Below, in pieces: positions 13,152 through 17,460 of a DNA stretch of 64,000 bases. The stretch spans positions 124,001-188,000 of the forward strand of contig JAENYV010000007.1 of assembly GCA_016841605.1 (NCBI GenBank), in the 5' to 3' direction. The stretch comes from Dethiobacter alkaliphilus. Its GTDB lineage: Bacteria > Bacillota > Dethiobacteria > DTU022 > UBA8154. The position numbers and the translations under genes were made by a program. Below the pieces are notes generated by a model. It had not been told where the DNA came from. It ran no database searches and was given only the letters and a program-made list of their open reading frames with translations. Every line of letters starts with the position of its first letter. Position 1 is the stretch's first letter.

Positions 13152-13392
13152 AAGGACAGATAAAATAGAAAAGCTAACTTTTGAAGAAGCTTTAGAAAAG
13201 CTGGAGAGTATTATCAATAAAATGGAAAGGGAAGAGTTGCCCCTGGAAAAATCTTTAGAAAATTTCCAGGAAGGTATGGAATTGCATTTGCACTGTCGCA
13301 AACTGCTGACAGAAGCGGAATTTCGGATTGAAAAGCTCTTACAAAACGGTGAACTGGAAGAATACACCGACCTCCGGAGGGAGGAAAGATGA
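13144..13392 (+). CDS. xseB: Exodeoxyribonuclease VII small subunit
   Basis: An 82-residue helical subunit that winds around XseA. The block LTFEEALEKLESIINKMEREELPLEKSLENFQEGMEL (positions about 10-46) is diagnostic. It overlaps xseA by 8 bases and ispA by 4. ATG 13144 is chosen because AAGAAGG precedes it by six bases; ATG 13138 is too close to that site. Confidence 0.95.
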   Translation: MHKRTDKIEKLTFEEALEKLESIINKMEREELPLEKSLENFQEGMELHLHCRKLLTEAEFRIEKLLQNGELEEYTDLRREER

Positions 13393-14309
13393 TTCTGGAT
13401 ATCTTGCATGAAAAAATCCATTTAATAAATCAAGCCCTTGATTATTATCTTCCGGGAGAGGAAGAATATCCTCAGAGCATTAACCGGGCAATGCGTTACA
13501 GCATCTTCGCCGGTGGAAAACGTATACGTCCGCTCCTAATCCTTTTAGTCGGCGATCTTTTTAGCTCACCACAAGAAAAGGGTATTCTCCCTGCCTGTGC
13601 CATGGAAATGATTCATACCTATTCCCTGATCCACGATGACCTTCCGGCTATGGACGATGATGATTACAGGCGAGGCCGTCTTACTTCCCATAAGGTCTTT
13701 GGAGAAGCAATCGCTATTCTGGCAGGAGACGCCCTTTTAACCCTGGCCCTGGAAATTCTCTCACGTGAAGATAATAACAATGATGACTGCCATTATCTTT
13801 CTGTATATACAAAAACAGTGAGTGCCGAAGTCAGGTTAAAAATCATTGCAGAGCTTTCCAAAGCTGCAGGTGTGCGGGGGATGATCGGCGGACAGGTCGT
13901 AGATCTTGAATCTGAAGGAAAGAGTATCTCGTCTCAAACGATAGACTATATTAATTCACACAAGACAGGAGCACTTCTGGTTTCCTGCTTTCGAACGGGA
14001 GTATTCTTAGGAGGCGGAGATAAGGATGATTTAGAACGTCTTACCGCCTGTGCTTCCGTTATCGGCAGCGCATTTCAAATTGTCGATGACCTGCTGGATT
14101 TGGAAGGAAATAAAGTAAAAATGGGAAAGGACCTGGGAGCGGATATAAAATTAAATAAAGCAACCTATCTGTCCCGCTTTGGCTTGCAAGAGGCGAAGGA
14201 GCTTCGCGATCAAAAATTTCAGCAAGCGATCAAACTCCTGGATTACTACGGGGAGCAAGCGATGCTTCTACAGAAGCTCGTTCAGTTCATGCTTTACAGG
14301 GATTATTAA
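13389..14309 (+). CDS. ispA: Farnesyl/geranylgeranyl diphosphate synthase
   Basis: A trans-polyprenyl diphosphate synthase of 306 residues that condenses isopentenyl diphosphate with allylic primers. Both Asp-rich motifs are present: HDDLPAMDDDDYRRG (first, about residues 78-92) and IVDDLLD (second, about 232-238). The early GGKRIRPLL block is also seen. It overlaps xseB by 4 bases (ATGA). The product length cannot be fixed from sequence alone, but the IspA family usually makes C15. It feeds the same pathway as dxs downstream. Confidence 0.95.
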   Translation: MILDILHEKIHLINQALDYYLPGEEEYPQSINRAMRYSIFAGGKRIRPLLILLVGDLFSSPQEKGILPACAMEMIHTYSLIHDDLPAMDDDDYRRGRLTSHKVFGEAIAILAGDALLTLALEILSREDNNNDDCHYLSVYTKTVSAEVRLKIIAELSKAAGVRGMIGGQVVDLESEGKSISSQTIDYINSHKTGALLVSCFRTGVFLGGGDKDDLERLTACASVIGSAFQIVDDLLDLEGNKVKMGKDLGADIKLNKATYLSRFGLQEAKELRDQKFQQAIKLLDYYGEQAMLLQKLVQFMLYRDY

Positions 14310-14322
14310 AAATCCTGCAATC

Positions 14323-14351
14323 TTGAGTTCGAAGAATTGATATGTTATAAT
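14323..14351 (+). promoter_or_regulatory. Sigma-A promoter for OLE RNA
   Basis: TTGAGT (14323-14328), exactly 17 bases, then TATAAT (14346-14351). It begins 13 bp after the ispA stop and predicts a transcript start near 14358, three bases before the first strand of the OLE closing helix. Confidence 0.8.
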
Positions 14352-14357
14352 CAAGTA

Positions 14358-14928
14358 AAGACACAGGTGGTGCAGTATCCTAGTTGGCACATCGCTCTGG
14401 AGGGCGGGGCTAAAAATCCGCTTAAGGGCACATCGATGAAGTTCCTTGTGCCGGCTGCCGAAGCCCAGTCGGGGGTTGGTGCTGGGAGTTAAGAAGGATG
14501 GGGCGATCTACAAAGGCATGTAGGCGTTGACCCTGCCTTCGTGGAGACCTAAGTACGTGGCGTATTACCGTACGGTAAAAGGTTACGGCTTAGAGATAGA
14601 ACCTGTGTGCGGCAGACGCTGTGCACAGTGTAGCCTGCCTTGAGTGGTTTTCGGGGGAGAAAGGCAAAGTCCTTGGGAAACCAAAACTGCAAAAGAGGCT
14701 AAAGAGCGAAAAAGTGCTATGGAGGAAATCTCCTAGGCTGTTCCCACCGGAGGGAGACTCTGCGGGGATTAAAGTGTGGACTTAGTGGTAATCCAGCCCT
14801 GTTGATGGCAACACTGCAGAGATGGCCTTAAAAGGAAACTGCCGGGTTGGTGACGACCAGGCGGTCATTTGGGAAAACCTGCTGGACCTGAAGCCGCAAA
14901 GTTTACCCATAGAGTTGCCACCTGTGTT
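14358..14928 (+). ncRNA. ole: OLE RNA (ornate, large, extremophilic)
   Basis: A non-coding stretch of about 570 bases, relatively G-rich and full of local inverted repeats, between ispA and a small four-helix membrane protein followed by dxs. That is the known OLE locus order in alkaliphilic and anaerobic Firmicutes (isoprenoid operon with xseA/xseB/ispA upstream). Its ends pair perfectly: ACACAGGTGG (14361-14370) with CCACCTGTGT (14918-14927). Internal stems include GGCAC/GTGCC near 14428-14452 and GGCAG/CTGCC near 14611-14640. No long open frame covers it. OLE RNAs form membrane-associated complexes with OapA and have been linked in published work to tolerance of alcohols, cold and Mg2+ stress. 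The identification rests on size, synteny, partner gene and closing helix; a covariance-model search would settle it. Confidence 0.9.
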
Positions 14929-14956
14929 CTTGATACGTATATGAGGTGGCTTTTTT
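14917..14956 (+). promoter_or_regulatory. Terminator-like hairpin holding the oapA ribosome binding site
   Basis: GCCACCT (14917-14923) can pair with AGGTGGC (14944-14950), which is followed by six T (14951-14956). The 3' arm contains GAGGTGG, the ribosome binding site for the TTG start at 14955. The 5' arm is the same strand that closes OLE RNA, so OLE helix and hairpin exclude each other. Confidence 0.65.
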
Positions 14957-15560
14957 GCCCAAAGAAAAACCAACAAGGCAAAAAAAAAGAACGGCTTGGT
15001 TTTTTTTCGTCGGTTGTTGGACTTTTTTTTTAGCTATTTTTTTTACCCTGGTAACACGTTTTTTATTGCAAAGTTTCCGGTCGATTATTCTTTCCTTTTT
15101 TCTTCTTTTACTTATTATTGCTATTGGAATTGTCTTTGATATTATCGGTACAGCGGTAACCGCTGCCAGCGAAAAACCCTTTCATGCAAAGGCTGCCAAA
15201 AAAATTTTTGGTGCTAAAATGGGCATTTATCTGGTTCGAAATGCGGATCGTGTCGCGAGTTTTTGTAACGATGTCGTGGGTGACATTTCCGGTATCGTAA
15301 GTGGTATCGTGGCTGCAGTGATTATTATTAACATTACACTTGCCAAGCCCTACTTAAACGAAATAGCAATGAGTATTTTGCTGGCCGGCCTGGTTTCTGC
15401 TCTGACAGTTGGGGGAAAAGCCGTTGGGAAAACCCTGGCTATTAATAAACCGACCGATATTGTCTTTCTTTTTGCGAGATTGCTGACAACCTTTGAAAAT
15501 ATTATTTATCGCAAGAAAAAGGGTAAACCCAAAATTAGATCTTCTCAAGAAAAGCGGTGA
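14955..15560 (+). CDS. oapA: OLE-associated membrane protein OapA
   Basis: A 201-residue integral membrane protein directly downstream of OLE RNA. A very basic N-terminus (PKEKPTRQKKR) is followed by about four hydrophobic segments: two near residues 14-65, and two around 110-160. The pattern CNDVVGDIS (D at about 106 and 110) contains the DX3D motif known for OapA. OapA binds OLE RNA and places it at the membrane. TTG 14955 is the chosen start because GAGGTGG sits 5-6 bases upstream; GTG 14946 lies inside that site. The protein ends 4 bases before the dxs start, so the two are translationally close. Confidence 0.88.
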   Translation: MPKEKPTRQKKRTAWFFFVGCWTFFLAIFFTLVTRFLLQSFRSIILSFFLLLLIIAIGIVFDIIGTAVTAASEKPFHAKAAKKIFGAKMGIYLVRNADRVASFCNDVVGDISGIVSGIVAAVIIINITLAKPYLNEIAMSILLAGLVSALTVGGKAVGKTLAINKPTDIVFLFARLLTTFENIIYRKKKGKPKIRSSQEKR

Positions 15561-15564
15561 TCCT

Positions 15565-17460
15565 TTGGGGACGATTCTGGAAAGGATCAACGATCCCGGC
15601 ATTTTAAAAAAATTACCCCTTCATGAGCTGGTACAACTGGCAAAAGAGATCAGGGAACTCATGGTTAATGTCATTTCAGGCAGGGGGGGGCATCTGGCAT
15701 CCAATTTGGGTGTTGTCGAATTAACCATTGCTCTGCATCGGGCTTTCGAAACCCCTAATGACAAAATTGTTTGGGATGTTGGTCATCAATGTTATACACA
15801 TAAAATATTAACAGGAAGAAAAGAAAGTTTCCCCAGTATTCGGAGTTTTGGTGGTCTTAGCGGATTTCCCAAGAGAGAAGAAAGCCCGTTTGATGTTTGT
15901 AGTGTTGGGCACAGCAGCACTTCGCTTTCTGCAGCTCTGGGGATAGCTCTTGCCAGGGATTTACAAAAGAAAAATTTTAAAGTTGCTGCGGTAATTGGCG
16001 ACGGAGCCTTGACAGGCGGTATGGCTCTGGAAGCCTTGAACTATGCAGGCCATATCAATACGGATATTATTGTTGTTTTAAATGATAACGAGATGTCCAT
16101 CAGTCGAAATGTCGGCGGGATGACCTCATACCTGGCCAGATTAAGAACAGATCCTAAATATTTTCGTTTAAAGGAAGACCTTGAACTGGTATTGGGACGC
16201 ATTCCAGCCATAGGGAAAACCGTAGTCCGTTCAGCTGAGCGTATTAAAGACCGTCTGAAATATCTCCTCGTCCCGGGAGTACTTTTTGAAGAGTTGGGCT
16301 TTACTTATCTTGGTCCCATAGATGGACATAATATTGCCGGTTTAGGAGAGATGCTCAACCAGGCAAAAGGGTTGAAAGGACCTGTGTTGCTGCATGTAGT
16401 TACGCAAAAAGGGAAAGGGGTTTCATATGCTGAAAAAGAACCCCACCGGTTCCATGGCATCGGACCTTTTGATAAAGAAACCGGCAAAACCGGCAATAAA
16501 ACAGGACTTACTACACCAGACAGGACATATAGTGAAATCTTTGGTTCCACATTGATGGAGCAGGCTGCTTTGAACAACTCTATTGTGGCCATAACTGCCG
16601 CCATGGTAGCAGGAACAGGGCTGGAAAAGTTTTTTGAACAATTTCCCAGCAGATCATTTGACGTGGGTATTGCCGAGCAGCATGCCGTAACTATGGCAGC
16701 AGGATTGGCTCTTGAAGGTTTTAAACCTGTCGTGGCAATTTATAGCACTTTTTTGCAAAGGGCTTACGATCAAATTCTGGAAGATGTGTGTATGCAAAAA
16801 CTTCCGGTAGTTTTTGCTCTTGACAGGGCCGGGCTGGTCGGCGATGATGGAGAAACACATAACGGCATTTTTGACTTTGCTTATCTCAGACCAATGCCCG
16901 AAATTATGATCATGGCACCCTCCAACGGTCCGGAACTGGCATCCATGTTAAAAACTGCCTTATCACTGAACTGTCCGGTAGCTCTTCGTTATCCCCGGGA
17001 CAAAACAACACCTCCCGGAGCTAACTTACCCCATATTTACCCCGGACAGGGAGAACTATTAAAAGAAGGGAAAGATATCTTAATTCTTGCCGTTGGTTCT
17101 ATGGTTGCACCCGCTTTGGAGGCTCACCGGCTTCTTTCTGCCAAAGGAATTTCAAGTTGCGTTATTAATGCACGCTTTGTGAAGCCTTTGGACCGGGAGC
17201 TAATCAGCAGTTGGGCAAAAATTTGCAAACGGGTTTTAACCGTAGAAGAACATCTTATCTCAGGAGGATTCGGCAGCGCGGTTTTGGAAATGCTGGAAGA
17301 AGAGCAGTTAAATAATATCTATTTTAAAAGGATGGGATTAACAGATCCCTTTACCGGACACGGGAACAGAGATATTCTTCTTTCACTTTATCAACTCACC
17401 GGGGAAGAGATCGCCCTTCAAGCGGAAAAAATGTGCGCAACTGCTCAGGAGCCGGAATGA
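15565..17460 (+). CDS. dxs: 1-deoxy-D-xylulose-5-phosphate synthase
   Basis: A thiamine-diphosphate enzyme, the first step of the MEP isoprenoid pathway (pyruvate plus glyceraldehyde-3-phosphate). About 631 residues. Visible: GRGGHLASNLGVVELTIALH and DVGHQCYTHK near the start, the TPP motif GDGALTGGMALEALNYAG, and the transketolase signatures FDVGIAEQHAVTMAAG and YSTFLQRAYDQ. TTG 15565 is chosen because AAGCGGTGATCC, close to the full anti-16S sequence, lies just before it and it gives the usual N-terminus GTILERINDP. It follows oapA by four bases, tying OLE to isoprenoid synthesis. Confidence 0.95.
   Translation: MGTILERINDPGILKKLPLHELVQLAKEIRELMVNVISGRGGHLASNLGVVELTIALHRAFETPNDKIVWDVGHQCYTHKILTGRKESFPSIRSFGGLSGFPKREESPFDVCSVGHSSTSLSAALGIALARDLQKKNFKVAAVIGDGALTGGMALEALNYAGHINTDIIVVLNDNEMSISRNVGGMTSYLARLRTDPKYFRLKEDLELVLGRIPAIGKTVVRSAERIKDRLKYLLVPGVLFEELGFTYLGPIDGHNIAGLGEMLNQAKGLKGPVLLHVVTQKGKGVSYAEKEPHRFHGIGPFDKETGKTGNKTGLTTPDRTYSEIFGSTLMEQAALNNSIVAITAAMVAGTGLEKFFEQFPSRSFDVGIAEQHAVTMAAGLALEGFKPVVAIYSTFLQRAYDQILEDVCMQKLPVVFALDRAGLVGDDGETHNGIFDFAYLRPMPEIMIMAPSNGPELASMLKTALSLNCPVALRYPRDKTTPPGANLPHIYPGQGELLKEGKDILILAVGSMVAPALEAHRLLSAKGISSCVINARFVKPLDRELISSWAKICKRVLTVEEHLISGGFGSAVLEMLEEEQLNNIYFKRMGLTDPFTGHGNRDILLSLYQLTGEEIALQAEKMCATAQEPE

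Follow-up and report, generated by a model that had tools for sequence, protein, structure and literature searches.

Few conserved RNAs of bacteria with an unsettled biochemical role are as large as OLE (ornate large extremophilic) RNA. In Halalkalibacterium halodurans, the RNA is anchored at the membrane by OapA, OapB attaches to P12.2/P13 and OapC to a kink-turn near P5, and the resulting particle helps cells to grow under stress from cold, alcohol, magnesium or carbon source (PMC9723947, PMC10898510, PMC12265935). OLE RNAs have been assigned to classes by bit score, those of 390 bits or more being counted as full-length, and two reduced forms of the same family have been described (PMC11332333). 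Variant 1, from the TANB77 clade, has a shortened P9, its P7 and P8 are also short and the OapB site in P13 is often missing, while variant 2, from the RF39 clade, is without P7 and P8.

Recent cryo-EM work presents the kissing loop of P9 as one of the contacts that weld the OLE dimer together, and some nucleotides of the P9 arch were noted as conserved. In the dimer resolved by cryo-EM, the two RNAs meet in a kissing loop, bridge B3, formed by the palindrome of L9.3, whose sequence changes from one palindrome to another (PMC12286853). Helices P7 and P8 lie outside dimerisation, by which Lyon and Breaker explain the existence of OLE RNAs that lack them (PMC12265935).

Here we describe an OLE locus in a stretch of 64,000 nucleotides (the window) from Dethiobacter alkaliphilus. 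We are highly confident that the region holds one complete OLE RNA gene, present in single copy, served by a promoter of its own and followed by oapA, and that its RNA would belong to a membrane stress-response ribonucleoprotein and would dimerise through bridges B1 and B2 without B3. As such it is a correct call of an already known system, and this copy alone changes little; the value of the window OLE is comparative.

Identification of the OLE RNA gene

The initial annotation had placed an OLE RNA at 14358-14928 and had named the Rfam OLE covariance model as a means to check it. We ran this search, and model RF01071 (gathering cut-off 50 bits) matched positions 14351-14937 of the plus strand over its complete length (model 1-616, untruncated), with a score of 461.8 bits and an E value of 2.2e-132. 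This highly significant, full-length match bears the annotation out. It was the sole match when the 64-kb window was scanned with Rfam models, the RF01071 search found one copy of OLE in the host genome, a 4.07-Mb assembly in 36 contigs, and the same model gave no match in 14 control genomes. The 587-nt Rfam envelope is intergenic, between ispA and oapA. No open reading frame of at least 60 aa was found on the plus strand of the OLE region, and the single one of that size, of 64 aa, lies on the minus strand at 14782-14976. The RNA, its ends and its neighbours are laid out as follows.

13389..14309, plus strand: ispA-type prenyl diphosphate synthase gene, the upstream neighbour (Polyprenyl_synt, Pfam, E 9e-52)
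14323..14351, plus strand: sigma-A-type promoter of the OLE gene, TTGAGT-17-TGTTATAAT, a -35 box and an extended -10 set 17 nt apart (10/12 matches, TG extension)
14358..14934, plus strand: OLE RNA, about 570-580 nt (Rfam envelope 14351-14937; exact ends as we infer them)
14361..14370, plus strand: 5' strand of P1, ACACAGGTGG (fully complementary to 14918-14927, with compensatory changes among relatives)
14918..14927, plus strand: 3' strand of P1, CCACCTGTGT (pairs with 14361-14370)
14955..15560, plus strand: oapA, encoding OLE-associated protein A of 201 aa with about four membrane segments and a DX3D motif at D106-D110; the TTG start is preceded by AGGTGG
15493..17460, plus strand: dxs, 1-deoxy-D-xylulose-5-phosphate synthase (Pfam; mechanical start, domain match from about 15577)

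The isoprenoid-operon layout that had been recognised from the letters, with ispA upstream and oapA and then dxs downstream, was confirmed with Pfam for ispA and dxs. The host had been read as a clostridial bacterium outside Bacillus, and this was essentially right: among named loci, the nearest are from uncultured Bacillota MAGs, of which two carry the label Syntrophomonadaceae.

Helix P1 and the ends of the transcript

The 10-bp closing helix proposed earlier, 14361-14370 with 14918-14927, proved exact, and it shows compensatory changes among 179 relatives. The two strands, ACACAGGTGG and CCACCTGTGT, form 10 Watson-Crick pairs and one additional G-U. When 179 distinct OLE RNAs were compared, a sequence's own ends formed 9.5 P1 pairs on average versus 5.9 for ends taken from different sequences, and 8 pairs are reached by 77% of own ends versus 22% of cross-paired ends. 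At P1 positions 5-9, GC, AU, CG and UA pairs all occur across relatives, which demonstrates genuine compensatory change.

From the spacing of the promoter, the OLE transcript would start at about 14357-14358, and this coincides with the start given in the initial annotation. An extended -10 element lies within 45 nt upstream of 61% of the 179 OLE genes versus 0.7% of shuffled upstream sequences. We conclude from this difference that possession of an own promoter is a conserved feature of OLE genes.

A terminator scan at the 3' end of OLE found none. A T run after the 3' strand of P1 is present in 52% of OLE genes with a short P9, in 14% of those with a long P9 (the two classes are defined below) and in 10% of shuffles; L003, L004, L008 and L064 are examples of loci that have it. 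Such a run may mark 3' end formation in the clade that carries it. As an OLE-specific terminator, the uracil run is a weak candidate given its share of 52% in one class versus 14% in the other, an unevenness that most likely reflects shared ancestry.

OapA and the other partner proteins

The four-helix membrane protein with a DX3D motif that had been taken for OapA could be verified as such. It has about four membrane segments, and when the window protein was aligned with homologues from 84 loci, D106, G109 and D110 of its motif CNDVVGD were invariant. It resembles the CNNM membrane domain below the cut-off (E 4e-5), which fits the published resemblance between OapA and the magnesium transporter MpfA (PMC11332333). 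NCBIfam gave no match for OapA or OapB, and a sequence search of solved structures gave none for OapA. The TTG at 14955 appears more likely to be the oapA start than the mechanical GTG at 14946, because the latter falls inside the ribosome-binding site AGGTGG. The TTG start is also kept in L062 and L063.

OapB, OapC, bS21 and an MpfA-like protein were sought by targeted searches of the window's own genome alone. OapB escaped a search with the Pfam KOW model, the only two matches of which are presumably L24 and NusG. The OapB ORF was located by gene position, in the interval between map and infA, and was then confirmed against PDB 7k9b, 'OLE-associated protein B', with a match that is significant and distant (E 3.6e-8). 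Its position agrees with that in H. halodurans, where the OapB gene sits in a translation operon (PMC9723947). An OapC/YbxF ORF lies between rpoC and rpsL and matches YbxF structures (1e-12), and bS21 is encoded in the genome as well. Judged from these sequence matches, the established OLE partners OapA, OapB, OapC and bS21 are all encoded in the host genome.

The same genome encodes a full-length MpfA-like CNNM-CBS-CorC protein of 427 aa (C8:171758-173041; L150:759-2042, minus strand), which we regard as a putative MpfA only. According to a published survey, genomes with MpfA tend not to have OLE and vice versa (PMC11332333); the presence of the MpfA-like protein alongside OLE runs against that report and counts against the explanation of the locus that we favour.

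Predicted dimer contacts

The elements inside the RNA are given below, with bridge assignments transferred from the structure of another species, the Clostridium acetobutylicum dimer.

14408..14419, plus strand: P4 loop with the conserved A-run GGCUAAAAAUCC, dimer bridge B1 (A-run retained in almost every RNA of both P9 classes; bridge per PMC12286853)
14424..14441, plus strand: J4a/5, conserved segment of the OapC kink-turn region (kink-turn per PMC9723947, PMC12286853)
14461..14468, plus strand: L5 loop AAGCCCAG, half of bridge B2 (GCC in 56/56 short and 123/123 long RNAs)
14511..14520, plus strand: L6 loop CAAAGGCAUG, the other half of bridge B2 (GGC in 55/56 short and 123/123 long RNAs)
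14546..14630, plus strand: P7 and P8, of normal length (P7-P8 segment 83 nt, within the usual long-P9 range)
14646..14686, plus strand: short P9, 41 nt, with a plain hairpin end and without the palindromic L9.3 kissing loop (dimer bridge B3)
14847..14858, plus strand: P13 tip UUGGUGACGACC, part of the OapB-binding region (OapB site P12.2/P13 per PMC9723947)

In bridge B2, the GGC of L6 is complementary to the GCC in L5 of the partner RNA. Judged by sequence, the elements of both B1 and B2 are retained in the window OLE and in the short-P9 class, to the same degree as in the long class, and the P7-P8 segment of the short class is of normal length too. The window OLE would still dimerise, through its P4 A-loops (B1) and through L5/L6 (B2). 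With B3 unavailable for want of a P9 kissing loop, its dimer should be one without the P9 arch. This is the opposite case to that of the OLE RNAs lacking P7 and P8, in that a dimer contact is absent and P7 and P8 are kept. By analogy with H. halodurans, OapA would tether the RNA to the cytoplasmic membrane, and the RNA would work with OapB and OapC as an RNA-protein particle in the response to cold, alcohols, high magnesium and poor carbon sources.

The shortened P9 hairpin

The short P9 is the one feature in which the window OLE departs from the textbook form, and it was absent from the initial annotation. In the Rfam alignment, 2 nt replace 38 model positions inside this hairpin. When P9 was cut out between two conserved anchors in all fetched OLE loci, its length fell into two size classes, one of 24-57 nt with 64 distinct RNAs (63 at 49 nt or less, mostly 32-49 nt) and one of 66-87 nt with 173 RNAs (mostly 71-82 nt); the fetched loci are the higher-scoring ones, a sampling that favours good matches, and the share of the short form is not a census.

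Palindromes were scored in the predicted loops of isolated P9 segments. A self-complementary apical loop was present in 153 of the 173 long P9 segments versus 4 of the 64 short ones. Shuffled loops gave an expectation of 39% in the long class and of 8% in the short class, where the observed 4/64 is about that or fewer. The palindromes of the long class are mostly GGCC, with GAGCTC, GCGC, GGATCC, GGTACC and CTCGAG also found; the predicted loop of the window P9 contains no palindrome of at least 4 nt. From these predicted loops, we take it that the long-class P9 loop corresponds to L9.3 and that the short class, the window OLE included, cannot form B3 as described in PMC12286853.

On a tree of 179 OLE RNAs that was built without P9, the P9 state changed at least 7 times, 4 of the changes being forced by well-supported branches, versus about 48 times with shuffled labels; loss and gain of the long P9 are not distinguished by this tree. 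The pattern identifies P9 length as a stable trait that has changed more than once. Most of the window's order has a short P9, and so do Caldanaerobacter subterraneus (L138) and several uncultured lineages. One locus of the window's order (L002, genome G023) has a long P9 with a GGCC loop, which would be either an ancestral remnant or the product of a misbinned contig. The open-access OLE literature examined holds no description of a short P9 combined with normal P7/P8, a form that may show in published alignments.

Relation to described OLE forms

With the full-length OLE RNAs of RF01071 (H. halodurans, C. acetobutylicum, C. botulinum) the window OLE shares a complete secondary structure, the conserved loops, P1 and a length of about 577 nt, as well as an adjacent oapA, the isoprenoid/xse/tlyA/recN neighbourhood and OapB, OapC and bS21 in the genome. 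It differs from them in its P9, of 41 nt versus 71-82 nt and without a palindromic L9.3; B3 is a feature of the C. acetobutylicum dimer and not a condition of OLE membership. Its score of 461.8 bits falls in the full-length range of PMC11332333, the model of which is not identical to Rfam's, and RNAs scoring like it were probably counted as full-length in that study. The shortened P9 is common to the window OLE and variant 1, but P7 and P8 are normal in the window OLE and the tip of P13 is kept. We rejected assignment to variant 1 on the P7-P8 segment of 83 nt, P9 alone being short, and assignment to variant 2 on the presence of both P7 and P8. The short-P9 class as a whole, with its P7-P8 segment of normal length, likewise belongs to neither variant. 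The OLE RNA of C. subterraneus resembles the window OLE in having a P9 of 40 nt without a palindromic loop, an oapA gene and the same gene order; it belongs to a separate lineage and to a named organism (DSM 13054), which makes it a practical test case.

Could the region be a different large structured RNA that is OLE-like in appearance only? We found no point that supports this, and the chance of it is negligible: the complete covariance-model match at E 2.2e-132 refutes it, the controls gave no match, and the right neighbour gene and partners are in place. It is also very improbable that OLE is mainly a cis-acting leader controlling oapA-dxs, in which CCACCU of the P1 3' strand would pair either with AGGUGG at the 5' end of OLE or with the identical ribosome-binding site AGGUGG of oapA, so that OLE folding would free oapA translation. 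Both AGGUGG copies are indeed present (14365-14370 and 14944-14949, with CCACCT at 14918-14923), and oapA directly follows OLE in most loci. However, the alternative helix would have just 6 bp closing a loop of about 20 nt, and a sequence like AGGUGG is to be expected at the ribosome-binding site of any gene. Moreover, OLE is encoded apart from oapA in several genomes, and published work has shown trans functions and membrane localisation.

Hardly more credible is the proposal that the short P9 is a sign of decay, in an OLE RNA that is being lost, and not a stable functional form. It draws on the reduced variants 1 and 2, which occur in genome-reduced gut lineages largely without OapB/OapC (PMC11332333). 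Against this, the remainder of the window RNA is intact at 461.8 bits, all partners are encoded in the host genome, whole clades have stably inherited the short form (a minimum of 7 changes versus about 48 with shuffled labels), and other short-P9 RNAs reach 541.7 bits, as in C. subterraneus. We incline to the view that loss or gain of the P9 arch and B3 has occurred repeatedly among OLE RNAs that are full-length in other respects and retain the remaining dimer bridges. If this is true, there would be two natural architectures of the OLE dimer, and OLE could do its work without B3. A large natural set of OLE RNAs without B3, C. subterraneus among them, would allow the contact to be probed without engineering and would narrow the location of the essential chemistry.

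Occurrence of OLE among Bacillota

The initial annotation had further seen the locus as widening the comparison set. This was overstated: OLE is already on record for 2,822 Bacillota assemblies (PMC11332333). RF01071 detected it here in 217 of the 299 genomes that we sampled across the phylum, and in 50 of 60 near relatives. The order xseA-xseB-ispA-OLE-oapA-dxs-tlyA-nadK-recN is kept in most of the 49 loci examined.

An apparent class of genomes with OapA and without OLE (L075, L088, L106, L129) was considered and dismissed, as 4 of 6 such genomes have a full-length OLE elsewhere; of the remaining two, one has partial OLE matches only and one, a MAG, has none. At L075, L088, L081 and L078 the oapA locus is without OLE at the gathering threshold and a full-length OLE lies at another place in the genome, meaning that ole is separated from oapA. 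L106, from a MAG of Candidatus Butyricicoccus stercorigallinarum, encodes an OapA-like protein in a dxs-tlyA-nadK-recN operon, in an assembly that has no OLE match and may be incomplete. Two separate partial OLE matches were seen on different contigs of one genome (L290 and L291, G355), one of them 280 nt long yet spanning model 1-616. Genome size also varies around the window's genome (G000, 4.07 Mb), two genomes of the same genus measuring 2.1 and 2.4 Mb.
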